From: Phorcus lineatus
Lineage: Eukaryota; Mollusca; Gastropoda; Trochida; Trochidae
Direction: 5' to 3'
Assembly: GCA_921293015.1 (NCBI GenBank)
Contig: OV121088.1
Location: forward strand, 25,829,645-25,893,644
DNA length: 64,000 nucleotides
The translations under genes and the position numbers were made by a program. This document shows, piece by piece, positions 14,296-64,000 of the stretch. The first letter of the stretch is position 1. Every line of letters begins with the position of its first letter. The notes under the pieces are model-generated. The model was not told the origin of the DNA. It ran no database searches and saw nothing but the letters and a program-made list of their open reading frames with translations.

Positions 14296-17200
14296 GTGCA
14301 AGTGTATGTCAGCGCTTGGGAGCGGCAGGCTGCACAAACTCTCTCACTATTTCATCAAATTTGGATGGTTTAAAGTTTGTTCCCGATTTCAAAGTTCTGC
14401 AAAAGTGTTTGTGAAGACATGAAGAATCATATTGTGAAAAAACAACAGTTTTGACATTGTAATAAGACATGCTGTTTTTGTGTACATTTCTATGTTTATG
14501 TTACACTAAAATACCTGATTCAATCATCACCCAAGCACTATCATGCCTGCACTGGAGGGAAACAATGCTACCTAATCAAGAGCGAATCATCTACAGCAGA
14601 GCAGAGCTCATTGCACTGAAGCCGCCTGTGTGTAACATACTCAGGGGGAAGCTGGAGTACAATGACCTCGTCAAACAGAGGCCCTGTGTCAAATCAAGGT
14701 TTAAGAAAAGAGGTTGTAGAGCGGGAAGGAAGATAAGAAGATTTCCACTGAGAAGACAGGGTGTAAATTGGGACAATTTGAAACCAATCGCCTTCAATAA
14801 AAACATCAACAAATCACCCAAGCCTTTGTCTCTGCACTCTGTAAACTGTAGATCAGTAAAAAACAAAACAACATCAATTTTGGACATGATTACTTCAAAT
14901 GATTTGGACATTTTAGCTGTGACAGAAACCTGGTTAGGAACTGCTATAGATGATCGAGTAATAGCTGAACTTGTTCCCCAGGGTTACTCAATGCATCATG
15001 AGTCCAGAACGGACAGACGTGGAGGGGGCATAGCCTTAATTCACAAACAAGGATTGACTGTCAAGAAGATTACGCCCTGTTCGGATTGTACACTCACCAC
15101 CTTTGAACATATGGAGTGCTGTGTTAGGACAGGTGATAACCAGTTCATACTTTGTGTGGTCTATCGCCCACCTCCATCCAAAAAGAATGGATTTACAAAG
15201 GAAGTGTTTTTCTCCGAGTGGTCAACGTACCTGGATAGCATAACAGTACTCCCACAGGATATTGTACTCTGTGGTGATGTAAACTTTCATCTCGAAAAGC
15301 AAACTGACAGAGACACCTTCCAATTTCTAAGTTCATTAGAAGTTCACGGACTAAAGCAACATGTGGAGGGTTCAACCCACAAACACGGTCATACATTAGA
15401 TGTCCTCATCACAAGGGAAGACAGTAACATTCTTGACAGACCTCCTCGTGTAACTGACCCATGTCTTTGTGACCACAGAGGGAATCCTGCTGGTGACCAT
15501 TTGGCTGTTGAGGTTTTTCTGAATTATTGCAAGCCCGAACCAATCAAACAGAAAGTATCCTTTCGAAGATACAAGGAAATTTCAATGTCAGACTTCATTA
15601 CAGACATTGAATCATCTCCTGATCTTCAACAGTGCGATGGTTCATTGGATGATCTCGTACAAGCCTATAATGATGGTTTCAGAGCTCTGGTCGACAAACA
15701 TGCTCCTGTGCTGTCAAAAGTGATAACTCTCAGACCAAATGCTCCCTGGTATACAGATGAGCTGCGAGATGCCAAGCATAGACGGCGTAGAGCAGAAAGA
15801 CTGTGGCGGAGAACAAAGCTGTGTGTACACCATCAACTCTTCAAGGACCAATGCAAAATCATTGGCAAGATGTTGACTCAGGCAAAGAAAAACTATTTCC
15901 AGGAAAAAGTCATGGACAACTGCACTAATCAAAAACAATTGTTTAGACTCACTAAGAACCTGATGGGCAAATCGAGTACAACTGTTCTCCCAACCTGCTC
16001 GTCCAATAACATGTGTGCTAATACATTCAGTGACTATTTCACAGCAAAGGTTGCTACCATAAGGGAAAACATTGTATCCACTAACCAGGGAAATCTAAAC
16101 AATTCAGTAATGAGTGCGGACGTACAGTTCCTAGGCGAACATCTGACTCATTTCTCCCCATTTACACAGGACGAAATACATAAGATAATCTTGAAAGCAC
16201 CATCCAAGTCATGCGAACTTGACCCAGTCCCTACATTCATACTGAAGCAATGTTTGGAAAAAGTTCTTCCTTTGATAACAGCTATTGTCAACAAATCTCT
16301 GGAAGAGGGGCACGTTCCTAAATGCTTCAAAAGTGCAATCGTGAGGCCATTGCTTAAGAAATCTGGTTTGGACAAGGAGACACTTAAAAACTACAGACCT
16401 GTCTCCAATTTGCCATTCATATCTAAGGTACTCGAAAGAGCTGTCTCCATACGTCTTCAAAATCACCTCCAAACAAATGGATTGCACGACACACTCCAAT
16501 CTGCCTATCGTGTCGGACACTCGACTGAGACTGCCCTTCTTCGGGTTCACCATGATATAACAAAGGCTCTGGACAACAAATGTGCTGTTGCATTACTGCT
16601 CCTCGATCAGTCAGCTGCCTTTGATCTCATCGACCACAGCATTCTGTTCGACCGTCTACAATCCAGCTACGGAGTATCAGACCAGGCACTGCTATGGTTG
16701 CAGTCGTACATGAGTGACAGGACACAGTGTGTGTCAGTAAATACAGCCATTTCAGATTACAAGAATCTAAACTTTGGTGTACCACAGGGATCCGTCCTGG
16801 GACCTGTCTTGTACTGCTTGTACTCTAAGCCTATGGGTGAAATATGCCGCCGTCATGGTCTGCCATACCATGTTTACGCAGACGACAAGGGTATCTACAC
16901 AATTATACATCCAAGTGACAATGTAGAGAGAACCGCTGAAAGACTGAAAATTTGTCTGGATGATATCAAAACCTGGACAAATTCCAACATGTTAAAACTT
17001 AACCAGGATAAGACAGAGATGATTGTCTTTAGACCCAAGACAATGCAGGTCCAATCAGAAAGTTTTCATGTTGAAATTGGCTCCAACAAAATCCAAGCTG
17101 TCGACAATGTGAAATACCTCGGGGCACAGCTGGACAAATGCCTTTCTATGGACACCCACGTGAAAGCAATCGCTAAATCATGCTTCTACCAGATCCGGAA

Positions 17201-17822
17201 CATTGGTGCAATACGGCAATATCTCACAGAAGAATGTTGTAAGAAACTCGTCCACTCACTGGTCACAACGAGATTGGATTATGCAAATTCCCTCCTGTAT
17301 GGAATCCCCAAATCTCTGCTCAACCAGCTACAGAGAGTTCAAAACTCTTCTGCTCGCCTCATCACCCGCAGTAGAAAACGTGAGCACATCACGCCAATTA
17401 TACGTGGCTACCAGTGCACTTGCGGTGTCAGTTTAAGATCCTGATGTTTACCTTTAAAGCACTGAACCATACTGCCCCGTCTTACCTACATGAACTCATC
17501 CTCCCATATCAGCCCCCACGATCACTACGATCTGGATCAGCATCACTTGTCACCACCCCCAAAACAAGAACGGTGATGTATGGTGAGAGGATGTTTGACA
17601 AGGCTGCTGCAACATTGTGGAATAGACTACCGCCAAATGTGAGAGATGCAGACACATACAGCAGTTTCAGAAAAGCTGTCAAGACCCATCTCTTTGAAAC
17701 AGCCTATGGGCAGTGAACTGCTCTGATTAACTTTTCCTCTGTACAGCGCCTTAGAGTGATTCATTTCTGTCTCAAATAAGGCGCTATATAAATTTCGTAT
17801 ATTATTATTATTATTATTATCA
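14296..17822 (+). mobile_element. L2/CR1-like non-LTR retrotransposon, near complete, flanked by 10-bp TSD
   Basis: A LINE of about 3.5 kb bounded by the direct repeat AAAATGATTA (14286-14295 and 17823-17832), read as a target-site duplication. It carries one long ORF with endonuclease and reverse transcriptase, then a 3' tail with a stem-loop (GCGCCTTA...TAAGGCGC, about 17747-17784) followed by TATAAAT and a (ATT)n run, typical of CR1/L2-group LINEs. It lies antisense to KANSL3, probably in its first intron. Confidence 0.8.
14469..17716 (+). pseudogene. LINE ORF2: AP-type endonuclease plus reverse transcriptase, one frameshift
   Basis: The first open frame runs 14469-17444 (991 codons); the last 100 codons continue in another frame to 17716. 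An in-frame Met at 14565 is an alternative start. Endonuclease motifs: [12 protein letters not shown] near residue 121, TETWL near 153, [23 protein letters not shown]. Reverse transcriptase: [27 protein letters not shown], motif [16 protein letters not shown] (Asp near 713), [12 protein letters not shown], and catalytic YADD at residue 803. After HITPII near 17400 a one-base shift moves the reading to [14 protein letters not shown]...LWNRLP...FRKAVKTHLF, the usual C-terminal end of CR1/L2 proteins. Otherwise intact, so the insertion is probably young; the shift may be a real lesion or a sequencing error. Confidence 0.85.
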
Positions 17823-27074: not shown

Positions 27075-30000
27075 ATGTCCGTTGGCAAATACCTGGAACT
27101 AGGCGTTGATGTGGGGCACATTCTCGGACAGTTATCTCTCCTTGATGCAGGCTCGGTCGACCCCGACGATGTCAGCGTTATTATCATCGACAATAATACT
27201 GGTAAATCAATCAATTTATCTTTATGCATCATCACCGTCGTCATGGTCAACATCATCATCGTCAGCACCATCATCATCATCAGCATCATTAGCATTATCA
27301 TCATCATCAGCAGCAGCAGCATCATCATATTCATCAATGCCGACTCCTATGTTTTGATTACCACTTCAGGGTCCACATCGGATGACGCTCCACTTGGTCC
27401 CCATCAATACCCGCTAGGCATGTCCGCAGCCCAGATCCGGTTCCTCAATGACAAACCGGAAGCGGTAGAGATATTAACTCAAAAGCTGAAGAGCGAAGGA
27501 TTTGAGTGCTCGTTTGATCTTCAATCTAAAACTTTGTTTGCGAAATCCTCAGGAGCGCGACAAGAGGACGAAGCTGTTGTATTAGTTACGAAGAACATTG
27601 TGGAAATGGAAATGCCTATTGGAATGGCGGCAATGGCGTCGTTGATGGGTGATATTGAATTACCTCCAATATCTGGGGGAATAGGAATCCTCGCATTTAA
27701 AGAAGGTAAAAAGATTATGCTTGTTGGTTTGGCTGACGAGGTTTCAAAAATGAACGAGTCCTTACCAAAGCCCGCAAGAAATAAAGTTCCTAGTACACCT
27801 ACCCAGCACACTAAAGAGGAAACTATAAAGGTCAACAAAGAACATTTTGCCTTTATTCAAGAGTACAGACTAGAAACTCTCTCTAAATCAGTTTCTGAAG
27901 AAACTGGAGCTCAGCTGACAATAGGGAAGGATTCGATAACCGTCAGGGGAGACATGTCGTCCGTCGCGGCTGCAGTGAACATGGTGAGAGAAATGATCGA
28001 TGGGTTAAAAACGGTCGATTATAGACTTTGGCTCAAGATTGACGTCATAAAACTTGTAGAGATAACTAGCAAGGTCTCCAAGAAGCGCCATTGTACTATC
28101 ACTTTTCACCAGAGTGAGGCAAACCAGAAGGCAACGTTGATGACGTCAACAAAGGACCAACAGGAAATGCTGAATCAAAGCCTTTTGAGTGAGTCAAAAG
28201 AGATTATCTATTTAGAAATTTGTAAACGCTGACCATTGACTTTGATTGTAACATAGTTAAATTTTTATGCTTATAAATGATTATTAAAAAACTGCTTGCG
28301 AAACTATATTGCTTCCTTTGACTTCGATGACTAGATGGTTCAGAAAAAAATAATCCGTTAGCATAAACATGTATGTATGTATTTTGAACACATTTGAAAT
28401 AAATCTATAATTAGTGCATTACTGTGGTTGTTTAGATCGCAAACGTTCGAAAGTGACGGTCGTCATGAATGCATTGGAAAACCAAGAGGTGAGTTGGAAG
28501 TTTATATGAGGTATAAAACTAAATATATATGAAAACAAAACACAATTACAAACTACGAGGTTGCAATTGCGGGGGTTCTTTATACCGCACTACATGCATA
28601 TGCTAAGCTCACTAATGTGATCATACACATATAAACTTTGTTAAACACTTAAATATGTAAATGATCTATCGTGTTTTACATAGTGTGCCACAAGTTCTAT
28701 GAAGTACCAAATAGTTTTAAAACATGAAATTGTGAGAGATGAAAGAATAGTTTATATCAAATGCGGCTCAAATGACCACAGTGACCTTTATTGCCACACC
28801 AGGAGCATAGAAAAACTATTGTCGACGACCTAGCATTTATAGAATTAAAGGTCAACCAAGAACTACCCTATGGAAGCAGCCAAGAAGTGTCGTGAAATAT
28901 CAATTAAGGAATTTGTTATCCATCAGATATTTCTTGTAATTATACCCGTATAATATAGCGTCCATTCTGTCCACCCCTCTGTCCGTCCGTCACAAAACTT
29001 TGTCCGGAGCATATGTCTTAAACTATGCATGCTATCTTCACCAAACTGCATACACTTACCAACCATGATCCCTAAATGTGCCTTTTGAGGGTTGGACCAA
29101 CAAATGATATGTATTTTTTGCGGTTTCCATGGAAATATGACAAACAGTGACAAAATCCTTTTTCCTGAGCATATTTCTTAAACTATACATGCTAGCTTCA
29201 ACAAATTTTATACACTTATCAACCATGATCCGTAGGTGTTCCTTTTGAGGGTTAGACCAACAAATTATTTTCAGTTTTTGCAGTTTCCATTGAAACATTG
29301 CAAATACAATGACTCTATGAAAAAGTCCTTTGTCCGGCGCATTTCTCCTAAAGTATACATGTTATCTTCACCAAACTTCATACACTTATCCAACACGATC
29401 CCTAGATGGGCCCTTTAGGGTTAGACTAACAAAGGATTTTTATTTTTTGCGGTTTCCATGTAAACATAACTAAAACAGTTGCTCTATAACCTATTCCTTT
29501 GTCCGGAGCATTTCTCCTAAACTATACAAAGTCATTTTTCCTGAGCAAATTTCTTAAACTATACATGCTAGCTTCAGCAAACGTTATACACTTATCAACC
29601 ATGATCCCTAGGTGAGCCTTTTGAGATTTAGACCAACAACGAAAGCCAGATTAGTTTGAAGCGGGGGTATTTGAGCTTTGCCCACTTCTTTACTTGTTAC
29701 TTGTTCTTTTATTTGATGTAATACTGCGAGTAATAAAAAATACTAAACGATGTCCTGTTGAATAACATTTTTGAAAACTCGTAAATGGTATCGGTATCCA
29801 ACTCGCTTTCGCTCGGTTAAAACCAAACTTTTCACTCGTTCCTTAAACATGTTATTAAACGGGTCATCGCTTAGTATTCTCCATTTATTACTCTCCCGTT
29901 GAAGTTACCGCCGTTTAATGAATCTACAATGTTATTACCCATGGTTTCATTACATCGTGTGCTGAATGACGTCACAAGACGTCACAATCTTTAAGTACGA

Positions 30001-33000
30001 TGTCGAAATGTTACCGGCGCGGCAGCAGTTGTAATTTAGACGATATTCATGCTTTTTATTTGGTATCATCCTGCGAATAACAATTAACTTAATTAATTAC
30101 TCGTGAATGGTATCGTTATCTTACTCGCTTTCGCTCGTTAAGTACCGAATCTTTCACTCGCTTTATAAAGATTTTATTAAACGGAACATCGTTTAGTATT
30201 CTCTACTTATTACCCTCCCGTTGAAGATACCGCCGTTTGATAGATCTACAATGTCATTAGCCTATACATTGTGTTATAACATCGCGTGCTGATTGACGTC
30301 ACATGACGTCAAAATCGTTAGATATGACGTCATAATATTGCGTTGCAGAAGCACTTAATGGTCATTTCGGCGATTTATTTGCTTGTTATTTTATATGATA
30401 GGCCTACTGCGAGTAATAAATAAAATACTTAAATCAGTCCCGTTTATAATTACATTTTTATGAACTCGTGAATTGTAACGGCAATTAACTTTCTTTCGCT
30501 CATTTGATACTAAATCATTCATTCGTTTAATAAAAATGGTTTGTCTCTATTTCTAATACAACCTGATAAAGGCCGATGTCATAGTGAACACCACGAACTC
30601 GCAACTAAACTTGGGACTGGGAGGGGGCGTATCATCCTGTATCCTGCGGGCAGCAGGACCGGATATCCAGCAAGAAGTCACCGAGAAATATCCACAGGGT
30701 ATCAGTCCAGGTGAAATTGCCGAGTCCGGACCGGGGAACATCAAAACCTGCAAGATGATTTTTCACGGCTCGCTTCCATCATACCCAAAGGGAGACAACC
30801 CAGACAGCAAGGTTCTGGAACAACAGTGCATCAAGGTCATGTCACGAATAGTGAAATCGAGTAGTTAAAGGCCATGATAATGTTCGAACAGAGGAACCCG
30901 ATATCGTAAGAAAAACGCAGGTCGAACGTACATGAAAACTTTGATGTAGTTTTTTTTACATCTACGCTTTAAATATATTTTACTTACGATATCGATTTCC
31001 TCTGATTCTGACGAACATTTTCTTTCGGCTGTATTTATTTTTACTTGTTGTTTCATTGTTGCATACATAACATTCAATATTTTCAAAAATTTTATGCTAG
31101 TTGGTTTTGTCTTCCATTTTAAAGCCATATGCTGCAAATATCAAATAATCAAAATTGGCCTTTCACTCGTAAAACTAAATTATCATAACTAAACGTCCTC
31201 TGCAAGGTATAACTCGCAAAACTGTCATCACTTGCTGATTTAAATATTGCTGCATGGCACAAAGTAAATATCAGATCAGCGCCCTCAATGAGATTTCTGA
31301 GAAAACTATCAAATTCATGGATAGGAGACTGAAATACTGGCACAGAAGAGTTGATAAATTGCAGCAAGGCGTAAATTAGGCAGTGATTGAGACTGGCGCC
31401 ATGTACGTGATTCAGGGGAAGTTATATTGATATAAGATAACTACGTGCTTTAGTGGATGGTATCCCTGGTCTTCAACTGTCTGATCAAGGCGTCCGAGAA
31501 GGGATACAGGACTATCGCCCTCCCCGCCCTGGGTACAGGTGCACTCGAATACCCCGTACAGCAGGTGGTTCAGCTTCTCTATACGGCGATACGGCTGTAT
31601 AACGAGGACAAACGGTCAGGTCAGATCAAAGAGGTTATACTCGTTATCTATCCTCTCACCAAGCTGGAGGTCAAACAGGTATGTTAAGTATTGTCTAATC
31701 ACCAAGTTTATTTCTTTTAAGTATTTTATCTTTGCATTATTATTAATTTGTTTATTACCCGCCCTCGGAGGATACTTCAGTTACACATTTATGAATTTTC
31801 AACAATTCCAGAAGATTGGCACAGGGTGATTTTTTCCTGTAAGTCCCCATTTTCATTCAACAGAGGTAGCAATGGTCATATCTAAGGTATAACCACTGTT
31901 TGGATACGAGCTCTCCTCGGACTAGAAATGGAGAAACCAGATTGGATGATATCAAAGTTAGTTGTGCTATCAAAGACACTGTTTCAAAAGTTATCATTTG
32001 AAAAGTTCAATCATTTCCGCATGATTCGGGAAAACTGGAAGGCTTTCGACATTGCACTTAGTGCTTTAAGGTTTCTTTAATATATACGTAATATGACGAC
32101 TGAACAATAACATAGTCTTCGGTGCAGACATGCAGACGGTGCAGACATAGAAGTGCTTAGTTGGCTAAAATTTTGAAAGTTTGTCTTCGTATTTTTGCCA
32201 ATGAATCTACCGGAACCCCGAGAAGTGCTCGTGTTCAAACCGAGGTAAGCGTAAGATTTTATCATGGTAAGTCTCAAGAGTCACACCTTTTGCCTAACGT
32301 TGATTGATCGATTACAGACAAACCTTTTAAGCCGTATTCTGATTTCTGTATTAAACAAGTTTAATTGTTACCTATAGTTCTAATTTGCCTTTTTAAATAT
32401 GTGCCGACGCATACAAGGTTGAGGCGCCAGTTAATTCCCCGAAAAGCTAATAAACTAACGCAAAAGTAATTAATTAAAGATTGCAGTACCGAAACACGCT
32501 ACAGTCAGTCTGAGTCTGTCATACACAATTCCCTGTATTTATAAATGTGTTTTGATTCTTTGATCAACATATGGGTAATTCAAACAATAATCAACCTTTG
32601 ATGGGGAAAGACAAGACTCGAGAATGACAAAATTGATTTATAACCCCGCCACTCCTCAGTTACTTTTTAAGTAATATTAGGTATCAAAAACTATTCACAC
32701 TTACGTCGTCGTCTCCAAATCGACTGGCTAAAAGAACAGGTAGGTTTGTCAATTCAAAAAATCCTTCAGAGCAAAAGTCCTAGAAGGCCGAAATCTTGAG
32801 TATAGGGACATTGGCCAATGAGATTACAACATGTAAATTTGGTTACTATATGGCTCCTATTGAAACGTTCTTTCTTACTATTCTTCAGATAAAAAAAGTA
32901 GGGACCTTGGCAAATCTGATTTAATATGACCATTGGTTCGTCACCCTAGGCTTATTTGAGGTTGTCACGTGTCACTCATCTATGAACTGGCCAAAACTTG

Positions 33001-36000
33001 TAAGGCTTCGTATCGAATATCAATAGATGACTGTCAAAATATCAACCCGGGGAAACATCATCCTTGGCTCCACCCCTGCATTTTTGACGACATGTATCTT
33101 TGTCAACTAAAACAATTCGCATAGAATGAAACATTTTTTAAAAGTGTAATAGTAAGGTTCTTCTTTTGACAGTTATTCCTGTCGCATCGCCAAACCCACA
33201 GGTTGAAAACTCGCCATGTCGCATCAGTTGAACAGATACAGAAAGGTATGCCATGGCTCTGAAACAATGTTTTTGTAATTCTTCAGAACTTTAAAAATCA
33301 AGGTGAAGAATAACAAAATGTTCCTTTCGAACGCCACTGATCGTCAAAAAGACCCATCATAAACCATTATTCGGTTATGTTTTTTCTATCCAGATAATAA
33401 AACCGAGAGATGTGAGGTGAGGGTCAAAGTCGGTTATACTCTCCTGCAAGTTGTCAACAGCAAAGTATACGAGGCTTGTGACGTCACAGAGGCTGTCCTA
33501 CTTCACTGGACTTCTAAAGATATCCGTGGTACAGAATTAAAATACAAAAATTGCTTCCCAATTTTCAATATGAAGGTTCAACAAAATCTGAAACAGCATT
33601 TGTATCACTTTATTCCTTTGTACTGTTCAGTGGAATTTAAATACTAGTATAACGTTTGTTTTGCTTTTAATAATTTTTAACGGTTGTGTTATCTTTAAGG
33701 TTGTTGTTATGAATAATACATCTTTTCAGTAACGGGTATGATGTATTAGTTCCACTTCTGTTGTAGATCCAGAAAAATATTCGGGGTTGAAATGTATAGA
33801 TCCAAATCGTCTTCGGTGGAATAGTGCTGAAATCGGTAATTGGAATTGGATCATATTCACACATACATATATATAGGATATTATTTGAGCGTCCATGACA
33901 TACTATGTTAACGACACGAGTGGCTTGATATAAGTATTTCCCGAGCGAGAGCGAGGGCGTCGTATGAATCATATAAACCCCGATATGATTGCCCTCGTAG
34001 TTAATAAATAGCTGAATGCACTGACATGTATATTAAACACTGCTGCCATGACAGACAATTTGTACATTAGCTATAGTATACAACTGCTCTGCTACAAAAA
34101 TAATGATTCCCTGAAGAAGCTTCGACACATGGAGCAGAAATATGCATATGTGAAAAAATAAAGTAATGATTTTGAGAGTTGATAGACGGCTGCAGTGTGT
34201 TGTGAAACCTCTACTGAATTCATGAGTTCAGCGTTGTTTATGTAGTTTTGGGAATTATAATAAAAGGAACATTTGACACTTCTCTTTCACTTGTATGTAT
34301 ATATCATCTCGTAAAGGTAGAAAATTAGTATGTTTGTAAACCAATAGGTATGCAGCGTCTTTCACATTTCACATTTGTCAAAAGCAAAATGGCGGATATC
34401 CACCCAAACTGTCTCTTTAACATGAGATCAACAGAAGACATGTTTTATCATTTCACTAATGCTCTTTTGTGTACACTTGGATTCTTAGTTACAAAATATC
34501 AAGGATTTAGATTTTGAAATATCTTACAAATTTCTCAGTTTCACAGCTCCAGAATACCCCGTGTGTAGTCGACAGGAAGACACTCTCAAGACGAATTCTA
34601 ACCCACTCTTATAGTCAGGGAGAAGATGATGTTTCAACGTTACAGGCCATAGTCCAAGGGATGAAGGCTGTGCAGGGACTTGCTAACACTCTCACCATTC
34701 CTTTAGCAGATGAAGGTTCGTTTTTTAATTAAGTTGGGGTCTTGCTATTAGAACATGTACAACTAATGCTTCTTATGCTTAACGCCTTGGATCTTTGGAT
34801 ATAAAATTAACTTTAAAAGTAAATGTATTCAAGACAGATACTTAAACTCAAATTATTTTATACGTTCTCATGAGAAAGAAAAAAAACGTATAAACGTATA
34901 AATTTCGGCTAAGCTCACTGTCCATTACTCAAATTGTTTTACACCAAAATGCATGCCCATCGGCTTTTCGCTTTGAAAGTAAAACCTTTCCTATTTCTTA
35001 CCTCGTAAAGAAAATATATTTTGCGAAATTTATTAAATGTGGCATATTTGAACAAATATAACATTAAAAAACTGCTACAGTGTCTCTTAAAACTAGTTTT
35101 ATCCCTCGCAGTCCAGTGTTCCTGTTAACAGTTCATGATTTTAGGTCGATTGTCCAAAAAGGCAAGATCCACAGCTAAGATGATTATTGAAGCGATAAAG
35201 CAAGCTGGAACGCACGTCCATGTTGTTACTGTCGCTGTTGAATCCGTCCCCATTTTCATGACGTTTGTATCTGAAGTTTCCACCCATTTCGACAACAAGC
35301 TCCACCCACCGGCCGATATTGACATGTCAGCGGTTGCGGGTAGGTAGTCTCTTGTAGTCATTGGAACAGTCTCAGCCCATCTGCAGATATTGTTATGTAA
35401 GTGATTGTCGGTGGGTAGTCCCTTGTAGTCATAGCAACAAGCTCAATCCACCCTCATGCAGATATTGAGATGTAAGTGATTGTCGGTAGGTAGTCCCGTG
35501 TAGTCACAGCAACAATAGCTCAATCAACCATAATGCAGATATTGAGATGTAAGTGATTGTCGGTAGGTAGTCCCTTGTAGTCACAGCAACAAGCTCAATC
35601 AACCATCATGCAGATTTTGAGATGTAAGTTATTGTCGGTGGGTGGTCCCTTGTAATAGCAACAAGCTCAATCAACCATCATGCAGATATTGATGTGTAAG
35701 TGATTGTCGGTAGGTAGTCCCGTGTAGTCATAGCAACAAACTCAATCAACCATCATGCAGATATTTAGGAGATAAACATACTGTGCTTGGAAATCAGAGG
35801 CATATAACGGAATTATAATAGCTCTAAATTTAATTTAAAGTCGAACGCGCAGCGTGAGTCTTTAAATGGATAATTTAGAGCTATTATAATTCTGTTATAT
35901 GCCTCTGATTTCCAAACACAGTATGTTTATCTCCATTCTACCATAACAACGATTTATATTTGAACTATATTCTTTCGCGTTAGCTCGACTGTGCTGTGTC

Positions 36001-38231
36001 GTGGATGCCCGTGCATGATTTCCACGGACTGACATTCATACAGAGATGACGTACTTGAGAATCTCGAATGACGTTACTTGAAGTAAGCCTCGGACATTAC
36101 CGACAATTTCCAAATGCTTTTAAGGGAGCTCACTCTTTTCAGTCCTCGTTAGTATTTCTCGACCAGCGTCGGCGTTCGGAATAATTCCTGCAATATTTTA
36201 ATATTTTAAGTCGGTATTAAGGCATTGATGTTTTGAATAAAGTTATGAGGTGAGTGCAATTTTAATTGTAATGAATTTAATTTTATATTTCTTCCGTCTC
36301 TGTTTCAAACCATCACCAGCCTAACGCCGTGTTATCGAATGGCTGCCTTCATGGACTGTCGGGGTTTCGCCTTGTTTGACCGCGTTACGAATTATCGAAG
36401 TTGCATACGTTTATTCTATTGGAATTTTATATAATTGCGCAATGTTAATCACAATAATGTTATCTTTTCTAAAAATGTCCGGCAGACAAGTATTTAGAGA
36501 ATATTAATAAAAAATTGTTGCTAGGCAACTAGTGAATTCTTGCGCGTTAGACGAAGTAAACAGAAGACTGTATAACCAGATTATACACCCTCTGATTTTT
36601 CACAGCAGCCAATCAACCAATTGCACAGTTATGGTAGAATGAGATGTAAGTGATTGTCGGGAGGTAGTCCTGTGTAGTCATAGCAACAAGTTCCATTCAT
36701 CTGTGGATATTGATATGTAAGTGATTGTCGGAAGGTAGTCCCGTGTAGTCATAGCAACAATTTTATTAAGCTCAATCAACCATCATGCAGATATTGAGAT
36801 TTATTACTCTCCCGTTGAAGATACCGCCGTTTAATAAATCTACAAAGTTATTACACATTGTGTAATAACATCGCGTGTTGATTGACGTCACATGACGTCA
36901 CAATCGTTAAACATGACGTCACAATGTTAGCGAGGCAACGACAATGGCTATCCTGGCGATCTGTATGATTTTTCTTTGATATAATTCAGCGAGTAATAAA
37001 TAAAATACTAAACTCAGTCCCGTATAATTACATTTTTATGAAACTCGTGAATGGTATCGGTATCTAACTCGCTTTCGCTCGTTAAATACCAAACCATACA
37101 CTCGTTTCATAAATATGTTATTAAACGGGACGTCGTTTAGTATTCTCTATGTAAGTGATTGTCGGGATGTAGTCCCTTGTAGTCATAGCAACAAGCTCAA
37201 TCAACCATCACGCAGATATTGAGATGTAAGTGATTGTCGGTGGGTAGTCCCTTGTAGTCATAGCAACATGTTCCATCCATCTGTGGATATTGAGATGTAA
37301 GTGATTGTCGGTAGGAAGTCCCGTGTAGTCATAGCAACAAGTTCTATCCATCTGTGGATATTGAGATGTAAGTGATTGTCGGTAGGTAGTCCCGTGTAGT
37401 CATAGCAACAAGTTCCATCCATCTGCAGATATCCCGTTATGCTTTACATGTATTTGTAAACTTTCGGTGTAATAAAGTTGATTGATTGATTGATTGATAT
37501 TGTTTTGTAAGTGATTGTTGGTGGGTAGTCCCTTGTAGTCATAGCAACAAGCTCAATCAACCATCATGCAGATATTGAGATGTAAGTGATTGTCAGTAGG
37601 TAGTCTCGTGTAGTCGTAGCAACAAGTTCCATCCATCTGTGGATATTGTTATGTAAGTGATTGTCGGTGGGTAGTCCCTTGTAGTCATAGCAACAAGTGC
37701 CATCCATCTGCAGATATTTTTATGTAAGTGATTGCCATAAGGTAGTCCCGTGTAGTCATAGCAACAAGTTCCATCCATCTTTAATAATTAATTTCTCACG
37801 TAACCTCTATGACAATTAGATCGCTTCCTTGGCTATTTAAGGAGTGGATGAGTCTTTGTTAGCAATGTAATTAGCAACGTTGTCTTAAACTGAGCATTCC
37901 GTCTTTGCCTGATGACAACTGAGAAGAATGAAAGAGCTGACAAATAAGACCTGATCGTAAAAGAGGTTCGTTTGAAGGAATGACCTCTGTAGATAAGAGA
38001 CTCATCTGAAAGTGTATGACTGTCAGTGTTTAACTATTTTCAGTCGACCTCTGGGAGAAGACGTTCGCAAGCAAAGCTGCTGACTCGACAGCATCGTTGA
38101 TAAAACTGAAGGCTCTTCAAACTAGTTCTGAGACAATTCTGCGAATCACCTCCGACTCTTCGGTTCGAAACCAGAAGGCAATAAAGGACTTGCGAGATAT
38201 ACTTGATACACCAGAGTATACAGCCTGCTGA
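27075..38231 (+). CDS. Macro-domain gene 1: KH-like + macro + degenerate macro-like protein (PARP14-like, no ART domain)
   Basis: Exons by eye: (start in 27054-)27201, 27370-28188, 28436-28488, 30572-30835, 31454-31678, 33173-33245, 33394-33528, 34539-34715, 35145-35339, 38044-38231. From the ATG at 27075 this is 2256 nt, 751 aa; an in-frame ATG at 26955 would add 40 residues. N-terminal KH-like repeats as in PARP14 (VNKEHFAFIQEYRLETLS...TIGKDSITVRGDMSS) are followed by a macro domain (ADVIVNTTNSQLNLGLGGGV, IALPALGTGALEYP), a short linker, a second domain resembling only the C-terminal half of a macro fold, and a last helical part ending DILDTPEYTAC. Macro domains bind or hydrolyse ADP-ribose. 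No ADP-ribosyltransferase domain follows. Exon sizes and phases from 28436 on match gene 2. An exon matching 54409-54477 of gene 2 was not found here; skipping it keeps the frame. Confidence 0.75.
27202..27369 (+). other. Intron with (ATC/CAT)n microsatellite
   Basis: Donor G|GTAAAT and acceptor CTTCAG|GG. The intron happens to be open in the coding frame and would encode an Ile-rich hydrophobic stretch from CAT/ATC repeats (about 27225-27345). Splicing it out joins DNN-T-GSTSDDAPLG in frame. Confidence 0.6.
27370..28188 (+). other. KH-like region of macro-domain gene 1
   Basis: One large exon. Two segments look KH-like by pattern: SAAQIRFLNDKPEAVEILTQ with the following LKSEGFECSFDLQ and KTLFAKSSG; and VNKEHFAFIQEYRLETLSKS with TGAQLTIGKDSITVRG and VAAAVNMVREMIDG. 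The latter resembles the repeated KH units between macro domains of PARP14. Binding partner unknown; family likeness was judged by eye. Confidence 0.55.
28930..29690. repeat. Tandem repeat, about four units of 165-190 bp
   Basis: Units share TTAAACTATACATGCTAGCT, CTTCACCAAACT, ATACACTTATCAACCATGAT, GGTTAGACCAACAAA and GCGGTTTCCATG words. They lie in the intron 28489-30571 of macro-domain gene 1. Short open frames here are by-products of the repeat. Confidence 0.75.
29725..30540. repeat. CRE-rich repeat, 2-3 tandem copies (unit about 323-334 bp)
   Basis: One partial unit (to 29883) and two full ones (29884-30206, 30207-30540), each with TTATTAC(T/C)CTCCCGTTGAAG, ACCGCCGTTT, CGAGTAATAA, ACTCGCTTTCGCTC and TTTAGTATTCTC. 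Each unit carries one to three TGACGTCA or close relatives (cAMP response element core). A further copy is inserted in the minisatellite at 36801-37148. Confidence 0.8.
30572..31678 (+). other. Macro domain of gene 1 (exons 30572-30835 and 31454-31678)
   Basis: Strand one comes from the previous exon (RKRSKVTVVMNALENQE). ADVIVNTTNSQL corresponds to the xDxIVNAAN motif, GLGGGVSSCILRAAGP to the GGGV loop that contacts ADP-ribose, and IALPALGTGALEYP to the GTG phosphate-binding loop. The acceptor of the first exon is preceded by TTCTAATAC, a good branch-point match, right at the edge of a CRE-rich repeat. Confidence 0.75.
31679..33172 (+). other. Intron of macro-domain gene 1, no feature seen
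   Basis: About 1.5 kb between donor GTATGTTAAG and acceptor TTCTTTTGACAG. No coding, RNA or clear repeat signal recognised. Confidence 0.5.
33529..34538 (+). other. Intron of macro-domain gene 1 where a paralogous exon is missing
   Basis: In gene 2 a 69-bp phase-1 exon (54409-54477) lies at the equivalent place. I searched this 1-kb intron by eye for a similar segment with splice sites and did not find one. An AAAATGGCGG word at 34387-34396 resembles a YY1 site. Confidence 0.4.
34539..35339 (+). other. Degenerate second macro-like domain of gene 1 (exons 34539-34715, 35145-35339)
   Basis: VSTLQAIVQGMKAVQGL, TLTIPLADEG, TAKMIIEAIKQAG and VHVVTVAVESVPIFMTFVSE follow the helix-strand-loop-helix-strand order of the C-terminal half of a macro fold, with the GTG loop replaced. 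The equivalent in gene 2 is 55307-56224. The N-terminal half with the Asn-rich binding motif is not recognisable, so ADP-ribose binding by this part is doubtful. Confidence 0.45.
35768..36640. mobile_element. Fold-back insertion inside the minisatellite
   Basis: It begins with a strong hairpin: 35771-35829 (GATAAACATACTGTG...TAGCTCTAAAT) pairs with 35871-35930 (ATTTAGAGCTATTA...CACAGTATGTTTATC). A second inverted pair, CATTCTACCATAAC (35934) and GTTATGGTAGAATG (about 36628), spans the rest. The array resumes right after it. Nested fold-back elements are likely; no ORF. Confidence 0.65.
36801..37148. mobile_element. CRE-rich repeat inserted in the minisatellite
   Basis: 348 bp, colinear with the units at 29884-30540, starting TTATTACTCTCCCGTTG and ending TTTAGTATTCTC. 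It interrupts a minisatellite unit between GAGAT and ATGTAAG. It carries three TGACGTCA cores within 50 bases (about 36883-36922). The clean single-unit insertion shows the repeat is mobile and that its ends match the tandem unit junctions. Confidence 0.75.
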
Positions 38232-48700: not shown

Positions 48701-51700
48701 TGATATGTGGGTGGGTGATGACAATAAGCTGGAAGATATCTACTCCTCAGGTCATGATATACTGGGCATACTAGAATTACATGGAATTCATCCTCTAGTG
48801 GTGATTTACAAAATGTACAAGTTGTATTGTGCAAGTTTCGTAGGCTACAATAGAATATAAAGAGTTCTCAAAGCGAGATTAACAAATGTAACCTAATTTA
48901 ATCCTGTCTTTTCTTTATCAATATGATTTTTTCTTAATACGAAGGTACCAGGTTCGGTTAAGCAAAGCGAATCCATCACCCTTACTTAAAGGATTAAAAG
49001 TTACTCACACTCGAATGGCCGCATTAAAAATGAAATAAATGATAAAAATATAAAATGGAAAAGAAACATTCATAACGATATTCATTATGAATACCTGGTA
49101 GTCTGATGGTTAAAAACATTCCCCGTGTTGCATAACTTAAGCCAACCCAACCCAACCAAAAACCTGCTTATTTTCGCCTTTTAGCATTTTCCCAAATTTG
49201 ATATGCTTGCTCGAGGCTGACGAATCTCGATAGGACAATGCTATTCTTAGCATTGTGCTTGTTTGAGGCTGCTAAGTTAGTTAGTAAGATAGACCTAGTA
49301 CATGTAGGAATATTGGTATACATACAGCTGCATACCGAAAGTTTGTTGACTTACATTTGAATCGGAGTGCAAATACCATGTAGTTTGGACGTCAATAAAG
49401 TATTTTAAGAAAAACTGACAAGAGATCACCCAGTGTGAAATAGACAGTTTTGAACCTATTTATGGATCGCATGGCCTTCGTGCAAAAATCAAAATTTTGG
49501 GATGTTAAAAAAACCCAGAAGGTGCAATATTTTCGAAATTTCGATTTCGTAAAATTTCGTAAATTTTTTCCGTATCGACTCTCTGAGAAAAAACCCAGCA
49601 CAACCACATTAACTAAATGCATTGAACAAACATGACTTGTGTTTGAAGCTGTTGATTACCTTTAAAGAAGTTTGTAAAGAAATTAAATAAGTGTTTTCGA
49701 AATGTTGACCCATGGTCACTTCAGTGACCTGCCAAAGTGTTACGATTGATTGTGGGGTATGATAAACATTTGCATTAAAGAAGAATGGATCTATACACAT
49801 GTAGTAAACATACAAAATCATACATTTCCTTTTCACAATGCTACGATGCCACAATTATTTCTGACTATGAAAGCATACTTAAGTGCTAGAAAATAGAACC
49901 GTACAAACCAATGCACTTTATTTTGTCTTTCAGAATCAGTTGTGGAGGTCATCTTTAACCAGATAGAAATCGTCGTGGTGAGATCCTGCACATGACATGC
50001 TTTCTTAACACATCTGTGCTCATTTTAAATGAAATTAGTCAGTATTTGTATCATTCGTTTCCCACATTCTTTACTTACCTCACACATATTACAGCTGGAA
50101 CATATTCTGAGCTAGTAATAAAGAATACTGATGAAGTACAAAATGTTACAAATAACTTTAGGGCTGTTCTCATACCTAACGAGACTGGAGTCCCTTCCCT
50201 TGTGCGGTGCACACAGGATTCTTGCAAGGGAGAAACCTGTCGAAGATGTATTGCAATATTTAAAAAAAACTACGATGCCAATGTTGAGATTGTTCACTAT
50301 AAGGTTATCAAAAACAACAACTTGAAACCATGGCTAACTCAAAACAGAGATTACATTTGGAGAGTGAGTGAGTGAGTGAATTGAGGTTTAACGTTGCTTT
50401 CAAGAGTATTTCGCTTATATCGCGGCTGCTAGTATTATTGCAGGGAGAAAGCCCGCGGCACCATTGTGGCTATGCATTGCGGTGAAACCTGCGAGCGTCG
50501 GCTGGAACTAGCGAACCATGGGTGTACATTTGGAGAAATAAGTTGAATAACCTCTGTGGGGAAAGAATGCTCATATATGATTTTTTTTTCAATTCAGTAC
50601 CAGCATCATGGTAAACATATTTAATCCTACGATAAAAAACCCCAGAGCAATTTGCTTTGTATTTCATCATTTTTTATATAATTTATAATAAAAAATAGTT
50701 AAACATAAGGCAAACTTTTCAAGAAGCACTAAGAGTACAGAAGACCTTTACAATTAATTATTCCGCAGAGAGGCAATGCGTCACAAAAACCTGTATACTA
50801 GATTACAATTATTTAAGAAGATTTGAGAGACATCATTTCAGCGTTTTGCTTCATTGCCTTAACCGTTGAAATCATGTGGTCAGTTACTTTGGCCAACAGG
50901 AAATAATAATTGAAAATTTTGTGATTCTTAGGCCCACAAATTACATTTCTAGAGTCGCAAGGTATGTTTGTAATAACTTTTTTTCGAAAAGGAATTTGGA
51001 GTGAAAGACTTTACACAAATATTTTATATTATGTTGCAATGTAGTCAGACGCAATAGCAGTCACAGCAAACCAGCATCTGACCATGAATGTGGGCCGAGG
51101 ACTGTCCCAGCATTTATACAACATAGGGGGGAGGGAAATTCAGGCAGAACTCGCGAAGAACTACCCGAAAGAGTTGACACCTGGCGAGGTGGTTAAATCT
51201 ACTTCCGGGAAGATGACCAATTGTAGATATATTTACCACGGTTATCTCCCCCATCTCTTTAAAGAAAAGAGTGAAGAAAACTATCAGGTAAAGTGTCCTT
51301 CTCACGTTTCTTATCATATTTCCTTGAATACAGGCGGGGTCAAGAATATTATCCAAGAAATAGGTCACCACAGGGTTTAAAGGGGCACAGAACATGTTGT
51401 TAGCGTCAAATCTGTCAAATTCAAGAAATTGTGTTCTGCCACCGAGAAGTAGTGGTTCTTTCTGAGAATTACCCCATGTTTGCTGATCAGTTTAATAATC
51501 TACCAATGAACAGGTTGAGGGGTGGGATTTGTTTAGTAAGTCATAACTAATATTTATGTAAATGATACGCAGTATTTAGACTTCCGACTATTATGGAAAG
51601 AAAGAAAATATTATAATGTAGAAAATACATGTAAGTTTTGAATTTTCGAATTTTATTCTTAACGTATTGTAATTTGGTTCTTATCAAAGCCACATGAAAA

Positions 51701-54700
51701 AAATGAGAAAAATACTCTTTGTCGTTTTCGTATAATCACATTCAATAATAATGCATCAGTTTATCCTTGTTGCTATGCTTTATCCTGCAAAATAATAGAA
51801 AAGGCAGGGCTTAAATCGACGCTGTAGCTGAAGGTGGCAGGTATTATTCGAGGATCTACATTTGGTAGAATGTGTTTTTATCCTTACAAACAAAAATGTA
51901 GAAATTGTTTGAATATATAATTTGAGTTTCATTTCAGTTTGGTCTTATTTTAATGAGATTGATATTCAGGCACTGAAAGATTTGATACAAAACACACTGA
52001 GGATGGCTACTGAAGACGAGATGAAGACGGTGGCAATGGTCGCGTTCGGGACAGGGAATCTTGGGTATGACGGTGAACGTGTCATTGAAATTATGTTCAA
52101 AGGAGTGAGAGATTTTTTCGCAAAGCATTGTTCTTCTCTGGAAACCGTCTACTTCGTCATCCGACCACAGTCCTCAATTCTGTTGAGAAAAGTGAGCATG
52201 CGTTTAACTTTTGTGTATCTAAATTCAATTTCAACTGCAATGATACTTTCATTGTCGCGGCATTTAAAAGAATCATTAGAGTTGTTATCCCTCATTCTTT
52301 AAGAAATAGATTTTATAATGCGTTTATTCTCTTTTTAAAGGGTTTGAAGGTTAAATTTGTTGAGGTATAAATGTCGGAGCTTGTCCTGCACCTGCTCTAT
52401 GACGTTATCCATTTTTCAGTTTTAGTGGTCAGTTTATATGTCCAGTGAACAATTAATTATCTCTGATTGCTCTTGTCCGTCAATCCATATCCTGGTATTT
52501 ATATGTATAACACATCACTGACTTGTGACATTTGCCTTCCATGACGTCACTTAAAAATGTTGACGGTGGTCTAACTCAAGCTGATATAAGTACAATTATA
52601 ATGTTTCTCGCTTTTTTATGTTTGTCCATATCTTTAGAAATGCATTTCTTCTGGACCTTGTATCTGTTAACAATGTCTGTCAATTTTAGAAGTTACTCAC
52701 GTTTTCGTGTTTTGGGTGGTTTGTTGGGGTTCGTACATGTTATTTCCATAGTTGTTTGACATTTGTGTGATTCTCACATTTTGTTTTTCCCCAAAATACT
52801 TTAAAATATTATTTAACTCAAAGTTAAAACACTTACTAAGGTTTTAGGCACTTTTAACTGTTAACTGTCAATATCATAGTAATCCTTTTTTAGTTAAAAA
52901 AAGTGATGTTTGTTATGCAGATTATTTTACCCAAAATCGGTCTTCATCAGATATAAAATGAAATAAAACTTTACAGTTTTTAAAACCAATCGTACTTATA
53001 TGTTTTTTTGATACCAATGATCCTATTCAACGTACGACCTTTACGTTGGGGCTTTGATACATTCCAAGATATGTGTGGTTTCATGACACACCTTGTCTTT
53101 AAATATTTCACAGCTCTTTCTACTAGAGGAGAGCAGTTACCGACTCAACAGTAAAAAAGTCATTGAATTAACAACAACATTCAAAGGTAGATGAAAAATT
53201 CAATCCTCATTTATCACATTTGTCATTAATCCATTCACATGTTTATGAAAAATCAATCCGGATTTTTTTCATTGCTAAATATATTGTACACATATTGTAA
53301 TCGATTCACATGTTTATGAAAAATCAATCCGTATTATTTTAATTTCTAAATATATTGTAGACATATTGTAATCGATTCACATGCTAATGAAAAATCAATC
53401 CGGATTTTTCATCTCTAGACATATTGTACACATATTTTTTACGTTTCATCCATTTTATTTAAACAATGAAGACCTGACAGTTAACGTAATCATATGAAAA
53501 ATTGATAATAATAATAATAAATTACCTAATATTTTAAAACTTATTTTTTCCAAAAATATCGAACAAAATTGATGTAGCATATCTGCTGTATAAGTTTTTG
53601 TTTAATCCAGCACTTGAACATGACAGTGACATAACCTGCGAAGCTCGGTTTGAGATGAAACAGAACTTTCTACAAGTAACAAATGGAACCTTTGAACAGG
53701 CCAAGAATATTGCCGAGAAGATGATCATCATTTGGAATCAGGAACACGTTAACAGTAGGTAGTGCAAGATTTAACTGCTAGAAAATATCCACCCGGCTTC
53801 ATATGTGCATCTATAATAGCGAGGTGGATGGGTACTATTAGGCTTTTTAGGAACGATATTTTCAAAATGTTTTATTTATTATATTTGATCAGAGAAAATA
53901 TACATTTTATATCTGTGTAATAAGTAACTTTATTCAACGCATACACTCCTTTTTAAATTCGAAGTTATATAGTAATCCGGCGGACGCCTCACCTATTTTG
54001 CGTCAACGGTTACGTACCCTTTTGAAAATATAAAAACCGGGATTCATTAGAAATTTGACGTATTTACTTGCCGATATCATGGAGGAAAAGTTGGAGAGAT
54101 TCAAACAGTTAGTGCTATTTCTTCAGGCTGTAGGGTCAATCTGATTAAAATCGACCATGGAATAATTTGTTTTAATTACTCTCTCTGGATTCGAAATCAT
54201 CTTAATATTTTCATCTTGCCTCTTAACAACGGTTGTTTTTTGGATGATTTTTTAACGATAAGGTGCTTGTCTTAAATTGATTTTCCCGCATATCGACCCT
54301 TTCGATGTATGTACAAGGTATGTATATGATATCGGATTATATATCCGACATAGTTCTAACGTGTAAGAAATGTGTTATTAAGCATTTAACTATGTTTTTC
54401 TTTTACAGAGGAAAAAGAGAATCCCATCATCTCCTGTTTTGATGAATCAACTCAAAACCAGATCCATCTGCAGTACGGTCAGTATATAAGCATAAAGCTG
54501 CGTACCGAATGTTTGTACACTAAATACTGTATCATTTGACTTGGGTTGAGTTTGGACGTCACTTAGATAATTTCAGTAGAGAAGACAAAGGATCACTCTT
54601 TGTCCTTGTGTAAAATACTTACATTCGAATTTTGCAGACTAGAATACACAGAAGGGGTCACAATTTCGAAAGTCTTTGCTTTTCGATTAAAAAGTTCCAC

Positions 54701-56224
54701 GGCTACTCTTGAGAAAAGAATTAGCACAGTTACATTGACTAGGTAAAAGGAACAACCATCAGTTGTATTTGATGAAGTTGATCAGTATAAGTATTTTAAT
54801 AAGTTTTAATTTAGTGTTTTACATAAAGCTATGTTTTAACGGTTGAGTTTGGTATTCGAATGCCTTAATGTCCAATGGATCTGAACTTCTGTATTGAAAA
54901 TTTAACGAAATCTGTTTCTTTATCACATTGCCACGATGCCCCAGATTCAGATTCAGATTCTGAATCTGCAATCTGAATCTGCTACGATGCCTCAAAGACA
55001 ATCCATATAATGATATGTGCACTAGGATATGCAGGTATTCAGGTATTCAACTGTACACTTATAATATCCAATCATGGGTTACATCTAGGCTTCCTCGTCA
55101 CTGTCGCTAATAATTGGTGACGCCTAAATTATAGCAGATGTCCTATTTCCCATGAATAATACTACAAGCTTAAAAGTAAGTTTTAAATCTTTCATGATCA
55201 ATTTGTAATATGTTTCTTAAGAATTTGAATAATCGGGTTTTAATCCCGTGAACGAGTTCTCGAAAAGCAAAAAAGCTCAAAACATTTTCGATATTCTACC
55301 TTAAAGGAATACAGCTGAAGCGCAAAGATTTGAATTTTGCAACAGACGACACATCCATACCTGGTACCCAACTAGTACACGTGCGTTGTGACAGTGATAG
55401 TGACGTACACGTGACGAAAGCTCTCGTCACTGGTCTGAAGCTGGTCAAGGCCAATGATCCACGAACAGTCGCTCTACTTGTAAAGACCGATGGTAAGTTA
55501 GGCTTGATATCCAGAAGCCATTTTAAGTGAGTGACGGTGTTATAGCAAATTTGTCTTCGTAGAGAATGCTAAAACCAATGGCAAGTAGGGTCATTAATCC
55601 AGAATAGCAGGGAGAGACGGCATTAAAACTGAATTGTCTTTGGAGAGAATCCCAGAACTGTTAAAACGTTAGAGAGTACGGCTTGAATTAAGAATTTATA
55701 TCTGAGACATGTTCCGTATTTTTGACTTAGTGGAGAGTTTCTTCAAATGGAAATGTTTTTTTTCAGAAACTAATCAAGATGGGATTACTATTTATGTGTG
55801 ACTTGATGAAGTTCGAAAATTATAAGCATGCGATATGTCAGGAGTTACTTTTTTGAATTAGCGCGAGGGCATCTTCAAAGAGAAATGCTATTCTCAGAAA
55901 CTAGCATATATGGGTTTACCAAATGTTAAGTGTGGCTCAAGGTGGGGTGGGTGTTCGAGTTTTTGTTCTCCTTTTTGAAAAATGGTTATAGGTAATTTTT
56001 ATGAATTCCAAGAGTAAAACAACGCTAATCCGTCATTGAAAATACTTGATCCACAAATGCTTTTCATTTAAGGAACACGGCCCTGGCAGCCCCATATAGC
56101 CGCAAAGAACATATTAGAAGCAACGAAAAGAAGACAGGTCCAACATTTAATAGTGAGGGTTGTCATTCTGGACAGATCTTTGTACATCCCCTTCCTCTAT
56201 GCCATGATGGACCTGATTCGCTGA
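45750..56224 (+). CDS. Macro-domain gene 2: acidic/coiled-coil + macro + degenerate macro-like protein, paralogue of gene 1
   Basis: Exons by eye: 45750-45931, 46880-47024, 47655-47737, 48208-48380, 49934-49977, 51045-51287, 51970-52191, 53114-53186, 53611-53754, 54409-54477, 55307-55492, 56073-56224. Total 1716 nt, 571 aa plus stop. The N-terminus is acidic and Pro-rich (YPPTDENLPEFP, EYPLPPEEIDEIP), then a charged helical, probably coiled-coil region (EREAVEKENMEDHRSALELY, EEDEQEDTCDEEREEVQD). The macro domain (51045-52191) has lost the usual binding loop (SDAIAVTANQHLTMNVGRG) but keeps VAFGTGNLGYDGERV. Then come the same linker exons as gene 1 and a macro-like C-terminal half. A splice acceptor (TTATTCATAG) 13 nt before the ATG implies an upstream UTR exon. 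AATAAA follows the stop at 56269-56274. No ADP-ribosyltransferase domain. Confidence 0.72.
46064..46384. mobile_element. MITE-like repeat with CCGTATTTCCT ends
   Basis: The left end ACCGTATTTCCTTGA and right end CGAGGAAACACTGTAT are imperfect inverted repeats around a GGCCGGGGGTGCGCC-rich interior. This design (TACCGTATTTCCTCG plus GGCCGGG) is a common invertebrate repeat type. A further inverted pair (CACTTAATAGAGGAAA near 46390 and TTTCCTCTATTAAGTG near 46585) lies next to it. Located in the first intron of gene 2. Confidence 0.5.
48470..48835 (-). mobile_element. Antisense LINE 3' fragment with 14-bp TSD
   Basis: 366 bp between direct repeats TTTCGTAGGCTACA (48456-48469 and 48836-48849). 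On the minus strand it ends in GTTGGCCTCATGGCCAT and a (TGAAC)n tail, the same 3' design as the LINE pieces at 19.9 and 21.4 kb. It lies in the intron 48381-49933 of gene 2. Confidence 0.75.
50364..50524 (-). mobile_element. SINE-like element with (TCAC)n tail and 12-bp TSD
   Basis: 161 bp flanked by TACATTTGGAGA (50352-50363 and 50525-50536). It starts with (GTGA)n on the + strand, so it reads on the minus strand with an ACTCACTCAC 3' tail preceded by AAAGCAACGTTAAACC. This tail design is familiar from repeats abundant in molluscs. It sits in the gene 2 intron 49978-51044 and makes part of a spurious ORF. Confidence 0.7.
51045..52191 (+). other. Macro domain of gene 2 (exons 51045-51287, 51970-52191)
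   Basis: The first strand comes from exon 49934-49977 (SVVEVIFNQIEIVV). The first exon has 81 codons against 88 in gene 1, the second 74 against 75. The Asn-Ala-Ala-Asn-type motif reads VTANQHL and the Gly-rich loop NVGRG; the later GTG loop is intact (AFGTGNLGYD). Binding may be altered. The pair of exons is phase 0 on all sides. Confidence 0.65.
52192..53113 (+). other. Intron of gene 2, no feature seen
   Basis: Donor A|GTGAGC and acceptor TTTCACAG. Short open frames without likeness. Confidence 0.45.
53228..53445. repeat. Three tandem units of about 71-72 bp
   Basis: Each unit has ATTCACATG, TTATGAAAAATCAATCCG, TAAATATATTGTA and ACATATTG. Located in the short intron 53187-53610 of gene 2. 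Confidence 0.8.
55307..56224 (+). other. Degenerate second macro-like domain of gene 2 (exons 55307-55492, 56073-56224)
   Basis: GIQLKRKDLNFATDD, VHVTKALVTGLKLVKAN, RTVALLVKTDG, HIAAKNILEATKRRQVQ and HLIVRVVILDRSLYIPFLYA match the order of gene 1's 34539-35339 module, exon by exon and in the same phases (1 to 1). The chain ends MMDLIR-stop, so the last two exon parts of gene 1 (DNKLHPPADIDM and the 38044 exon) have no counterpart. Confidence 0.5.
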
Positions 56225-56274
56225 CTTGACAAGCAGAAGGTGAACATTCATAAAGATGGACCAATCTAATAAAT

Positions 56275-61349: not shown

Positions 61350-64000
<2,651 letters not shown>

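Follow-up and report, generated by a model that had tools for sequence, protein, structure and literature searches.

The window analysed here is a stretch of 64,000 nt from the genome of the gastropod Phorcus lineatus, and it contains two paralogous macro-domain genes, gene 1 and gene 2 (the latter at 49900-56300). Gene 1 has a Pfam Macro domain match at 30557-30868, and the following coding exons lie towards its 3' end:

34547..34715, + strand: upstream coding exon e1, C-terminal macro-like domain (acceptor inferred from sequence)
35145..35339, + strand: coding exon e2, ending in ...NKLHPPADIDMSAVA plus G (tblastn with P0001 and P0002 covers 35144-35338)
38044..38231, + strand: last coding exon e3 with the stop codon (VDLWEKT...EYTAC, stop), by homology to P0001 709-759 and to e3 of paralogues B and C

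Gene 1 also has, between others of its exons, a 160-bp tandem array (28998-29528) and copies of a second element (29707-30538) that recurs below as insert 2. Elsewhere the window holds endonuclease/reverse-transcriptase open reading frames of a non-LTR retrotransposon at 14466-17716 (Pfam RVT_1 and Exo_endo_phos on 14466-17444) and mariner-like transposase remnants at 62006-62759 (Pfam Transposase_1 on 62337-62759).

To find homologues, translated exon pieces were compared with 5.8 billion proteins. Among the 19 proteins found, the best relatives were abalone proteins with 30-39% identity: P0001 and P0002 from Haliotis cracherodii, P0003 and P0005 from H. rufescens, and P0004 from H. rubra. 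The 183-aa C-terminus used alone as a query returned no protein at E 10, while longer queries succeeded, and a PDB profile search gave four weak matches, the best of them macroH2A1.1 (E 0.13). With tblastn, P0001-P0003 cover 34538-34720 (e1), and the last four pieces of the P0001 match on the window lie at 33384-33524, 34538-34717, 35144-35338 and 38040-38195, setting the e2/e3 boundary at 35338 and 38040. Exon e2 joins e3 in phase. The sequence evidence identifies 35145-35339 as a real coding exon of the macro-domain gene.

A tandem array spans 35293-37780. It consists of 16 units, the first of which (unit 0) is the exonic edge and the other 15 of which are intronic, together with a 19-nt partial unit and three inserts:

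35293..35363, + strand: unit 0, 47 exonic and 24 intronic nt (71 nt)
35364..35766, + strand: intronic units 1-5 and the 5' part of unit 6
35767..36640, + strand: insert 1 of 874 nt, which interrupts unit 6 and has inverted arms of 63 nt
36641..36802, + strand: remainder of unit 6, whole unit 7 and start of unit 8
36803..37148, + strand: insert 2, 346 nt, with relatives at 29707-30538
37149..37432, + strand: remainder of unit 8, whole units 9-11 and start of unit 12
37433..37498, + strand: insert 3 of 66 nt, with TTGA repeats at its end
37499..37780, + strand: remainder of unit 12, whole units 13-15 and the 19-nt partial unit 16

Unbroken units, 13 in number, measure 71-77 nt and fall into two types, one of about 75 nt and one of 71 nt, the length of unit zero. 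As the three inserts break units, they are younger than the array.

Unit zero starts 47 coding bases before the end of exon 35145-35339 and, through the donor, reaches 24 bases into the intron. When the exon was aligned with a doubled unit consensus, it scored 35 (type A) and 39 (type B), scores reached by none of the dinucleotide-shuffled versions of the exon (2000 each; mean about 15, maxima 26 and 28). The last 60 bases of e2 alone scored 39 against the unit; 60-mers sampled elsewhere in the window, on either strand and at steps of 7 bases, reached 24 at best. A preliminary description of this DNA had proposed that the tandem unit is homologous to the end of the coding exon through its donor, and had staked that proposal on the exon being more unit-like than chance; the similarity is far above chance. 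Its count, a coding unit zero followed by some 15 intronic copies, also agrees with the 15 intronic units and 19-nt partial that we find. The homology had been placed from exon position 35278, which is too far upstream: the alignment establishes that it begins at 35293 (CAACAAG), crosses the donor at 35340 and extends 24 bases beyond.

Could the array belong to a dispersed family of transposable elements or satellites and touch the exon by chance? Some transposable elements have tandem units within them, and this array holds inserts. We searched the 958-Mb genome of P. lineatus itself with the DNA of the unit, scoring three candidate places, and established that no copies lie outside the array as far as this search reaches, all 15 matches falling within it (counts that are lower bounds). 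Moreover, the unit includes the coding end of gene 1 itself. We therefore rejected a dispersed repeat or transposable element as the source of the array, an origin that we consider barely credible.

A second alternative reverses the order of events. Gene 1 would once have stopped as gene 2 does, lost its stop, read into an older minisatellite and taken GTAGGTAG as its donor. Gene 2 does stop at about this place, as the preliminary description had noted, and every intronic unit (15/15) reads TAA, in the exon's frame and within GTAAGT, at the position where e2 reads TCA. To be weighed against these points is the exon-end peptide, PPADIDMSAVAVDLWEKTFAS in the window, which aligns with VPADIDKSPVAVDLWEKTYAD in P0001, VRANIDRSPVADDLWKGTYAE in P0002, EPPDVDKVSLVDSLWKVTFSR in P0003, VPANIDKSPVAVDLWEKPYPE in P0004 and APVDIDKSPVAVELWTKSYAD in P0005. 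Peptide and next exon are collinear in all five abalone proteins that cover the end of the gene; the remaining 14 of the 19 proteins span 20-24% of the query and were left out of this comparison. Taken in isolation, the 15-residue peptide beats shuffled versions in P0001, P0004 and P0005 (matched by 0, 0 and 2 of 1000 shuffles), while 76 of 1000 shuffles were as good in P0002 and 581 of 1000 in P0003, two proteins in which we accept the peptide because the alignment is collinear.

The genome of P. lineatus itself holds two further genes with exon e2 among their matches:

C13 at ~5.253-5.266 Mb, - strand: paralogue gene B, match to exon e2
C13 at ~36.09 Mb, - strand: paralogue gene C, match to exon e2

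Both paralogues end the e2-equivalent exon at the same codon as gene 1 (ADIDKTPIA in B and ASVDRTPLA in C) and keep the intron that follows, 970 nt long in gene B and 5477 nt in gene C, with the e3 exon after it. Homology to the unit is absent from these two introns, where the best scores are 16 and 21, versus 39 for the 60-base exon end of gene 1. Since peptide and intron are common to B and C, which lack the repeat, exon and intron predate the array, and their ancestry is in this way established. On these comparisons we regard the direction as settled: the exon came first and the array second. A repeat-first origin is contradicted by the ancestral exon end and very improbable, and the earlier suggestion that the exon may have been extended into an older repeat does not survive.

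The counterpart of e2 in gene 2 takes on a different meaning in this light:

56073..56224, + strand: gene 2 counterpart exon, with TGA before the exon-end peptide (acceptor inferred from sequence)

The exon-end peptide being ancestral, the early stop of gene 2 is derived and gene 2 is a shortened copy. Its earlier stop, correctly described, thus lends no support to a repeat-first history. In gene 2 there is no exon-end peptide and no e3 exon visible to tblastn. A 71-bp array of three copies in gene 2 (53227-53436) has a decayed first copy starting at 53191, 4 nt past the donor at 53187; we considered it as a further array crossing an exon boundary and rejected it, as its leftward continuation into exon sequence falls short of significance (P 0.12).

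Splicing of gene 1 at the array depends on two short features:

35340..35345, + strand: authentic 5' splice site CGG/GTAGGT, whose joining to acceptor 38044 yields ...AVAVDLWEKT, matching P0001
35345..35347, + strand: in-frame TAG inside the intron, which ends any product of downstream donors

When donor 35340 was paired with acceptors at 38043-38046, the conserved AVAVDLWEKT came from 38044 alone. Beyond the donor, GGT AGG TAG follow in the frame of the exon, so that a product retaining at least 8 intron bases ends in ...AVAGR. This establishes the outcome in frame: the 15 GTAAGT unit donors all predict one identical truncated product, and 14 of the 15 lie more than 50 nt past the stop. The preliminary description had supposed that the array could feed new coding sequence into the gene; in gene 1 it adds none, because the TAG at 35345-35347 is in frame. 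An array with that potential exists in paralogue B, described below.

Each unit had also been credited with a donor like that of the exon. The exact GTAGGTAG occurs in unit 0 and in only 5 of the 15 intronic units, while GTAAGT, which had been overlooked, is present in all 15, its counterpart in the exon being GTCAGC. The further claim that the units form a series of decoy 5' splice sites is borne out by these sequences; their strength is another matter, as the authentic site scores 5.62, above every GT in the units, on a simple and rough matrix of vertebrate weights. Between 35340 and 37790 one other GT reaches that score, at 36250 in insert 1, outside the units. Most likely, then, the spliceosome still uses 35340, the outermost and strongest donor, and the decoy donors of the units are probably mostly silent.

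A functional role for the array can be envisaged in which the unit donors compete with 35340, giving regulated unproductive splicing that tunes gene dosage. Such a role would account for the retention of GTAAGT in all 15 intronic units and for the convergence of every unit donor on the same truncated product. It could also account for the 12-base stretch TGTAAGTGATTG, in which 11 of 12 columns are invariant across units (permutation P 0.005 for a feature noticed before testing; P 0.058 when only the longest invariant run is considered), a conservation that is a hint at most of function. A motif can, however, persist by concerted evolution alone, the unit donors fall below the authentic site on the vertebrate matrix, and amphioxus arrays of similar design reportedly leave regular splicing undisturbed (PMC3087553, PMC3902484). 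We consider a dosage-tuning role unlikely.

Our preferred account, which we hold with high confidence, is that the exon boundary was duplicated and gave rise to a minisatellite of the kind called a mirage, in which donor 35340 is most likely the site used and the unit donors are weaker decoys. The first step would have been a tandem duplication of 71 bp over the e2 exon/intron junction, which placed a copy of 47 coding bases, the donor and 24 bases of intron within the intron. Copies there may then have diverged, gaining GTAAGT and the in-frame TAA, before expanding to about 15 units under concerted evolution, and three insertions would later have broken the array. Use of a unit donor would truncate the protein at ...AVAGR and probably lead to mRNA decay. 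The central claim of the preliminary description, that the exon end and its donor seeded the array, is supported because of the homologues and paralogues; its observation is confirmed and its main reading is right, while the interpretation built on it is supported in part.

Mirages are exon-intron boundary minisatellites of amphioxus, described in Adh3, the globin genes BflGb6 and BflGb9, TnC and PGBD5; either boundary may be copied, units range from 10 to 160 bp and edge units escape homogenisation (PMC3087553, PMC3902484). One of these sources describes them as possibly general in cephalochordates (PMC3087553). The gene 1 array likewise sets tandem copies of an exon end and its splice signal beside the authentic boundary: the repeat crosses the exon-intron boundary, one unit being the authentic boundary itself, and many units carry splice signals (GTAAGT and GTAGGTAG, as counted above). 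The interior appears concerted and the edges diverged in a weakly supported unit tree, which is not rooted at unit 0 and in which the end branches of u00, u15 and u01 measure 0.22, 0.13 and 0.11 against a median of 0.03. By its sequence in the one assembly examined, the array is thus a mirage of the amphioxus kind, and differs from those described in lying in a gastropod and in carrying inserts. Our literature search recognised no mirage in a mollusc, which does not prove that none has been published. An abalone kinase gene is reported to have an intronic 27-bp minisatellite, for which the available passages of the report make no mention of contact with an exon (PMC6905558).

Other systems resemble the array in part. 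In the minisatellite of human IFI6 (6-16; Turri et al. 1995), two downstream repeat units are described as donors that give isoforms (PMC4526556). There too, tandem units present repeated donors at an exon end; gene 1, unlike IFI6, meets a stop at once, its 15 GTAAGT donors predicting one truncated product rather than different isoforms, and paralogue B is the closer parallel. Human segmental duplications contain internal tandem repeats at exon-intron boundaries, with transcripts supporting new introns (PMC2812944); they share with gene 1 the expansion of a boundary-crossing minisatellite in duplicated genes, and differ in that their new introns are backed by transcripts whereas the gene 1 array is known from DNA. 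Intron gain by tandem genomic duplication (intronization) also involves duplicated sequence with splice signals. We rejected it for gene 1, whose intron, unlike those so gained, predates the duplication and occupies the same position in paralogues B and C, which lack the repeat.

Further mirages are present in the same genome, at sites that include other boundaries of the paralogues and a gene of an unrelated family:

C13 at ~5.257 Mb (L014 651-2200 and L012 9651-9901), - strand: donor mirage of gene B, array after the exon ending ...VLVLWFEHELS/G
C13 at ~36.096 Mb (L013 7596-8291), - strand: acceptor mirage of gene C, at the intron end before the exon VKELPDAES
C11 at ~4.764 Mb (L049 2681-4201): acceptor mirage of an unrelated protein kinase gene

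The gene B array is 1.55 kb long and made mostly of 27-nt units, with a 102-bp higher-order unit in 15.2 copies, and it takes in the last 10 bases of the exon, GAACTCTCAG, with the donor GTATGT. Fifty CAG/GTAYG sites including the authentic one (23 GTATG and 27 GTACG) are all in the phase of the authentic donor. Read from the exon into the array, the frame meets no stop for 527 residues, and 46 of the 50 sites lie upstream of that stop. Uniform phase is no proof of use, because stop-free units of a multiple of three produce it unaided. In gene C, units of 74-87 nt present nine acceptor-like ends including the authentic one (CAG in eight, AAG in one), followed by the first ten bases of the exon, TGAAGGAACT, in eight and by a one-base variant in one. 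Some 8 kb upstream, that intron also contains a related piece of two copies (L015 8803-8967). Genes 1, B and C thus each have a mirage, and each at a different boundary. Gene C has, in a further intron, a 35-bp array of 20 copies (15506-16203 of the stitched gene C strand) that lies away from exon edges.

The kinase array has more than 19 copies, as it meets the end of the stretch examined, of a 78-nt unit that are 98% alike. Its units read CCATCAG AGCCTCCGGGACGGTGTGTCTA and the exon start ...CCATCAG AGCCTCCGGGACTGTGTGTCTA, one difference in 22, with CAG or CAGAG as the acceptor. Kinase genes served as a control. From 139 protein kinase exon matches we examined 20 of the 52 listed intron-split regions, a small sample, and found five tandem arrays of period at least 10. 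One of these came within 45 nt of an edge; the 46 edges of the matches include some domain ends that are not proven exon ends. At 30 further kinase loci, mostly one-exon matches, arrays occurred in nine and none lay within 45 nt of a match edge. A random-placement model gives probabilities that an array touches an exon edge of 0.134 for gene B, 0.099 for gene C and 0.013 jointly, values that use approximate exon coordinates and count three gene C arrays of which two are related and not independent. The excess of boundary arrays over chance is suggestive only. Mirages recur in the P. lineatus genome, including in an unrelated kinase gene, and the genome may hold many.

The gene 1 array adds a case to a thinly documented kind of minisatellite. 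Clear mirages, at donors as well as acceptors and not confined to one gene family, can now be described in a mollusc genome, and at gene 1 the paralogues polarise the ancestry. More tentatively, and with considerable doubt, splice boundaries might be recurrent birthplaces of minisatellites, with perhaps thousands of mirages, some of which, such as that of gene B, act as protein length ladders; if so, gene B would vary its number of short repeats through donor choice and through change in copy number. These arrays make testable how the spliceosome settles on a single site when dozens of nearly identical ones are on offer, and whether minisatellites arise preferentially at splice boundaries, which would thereby be a source of new introns or coding repeats.
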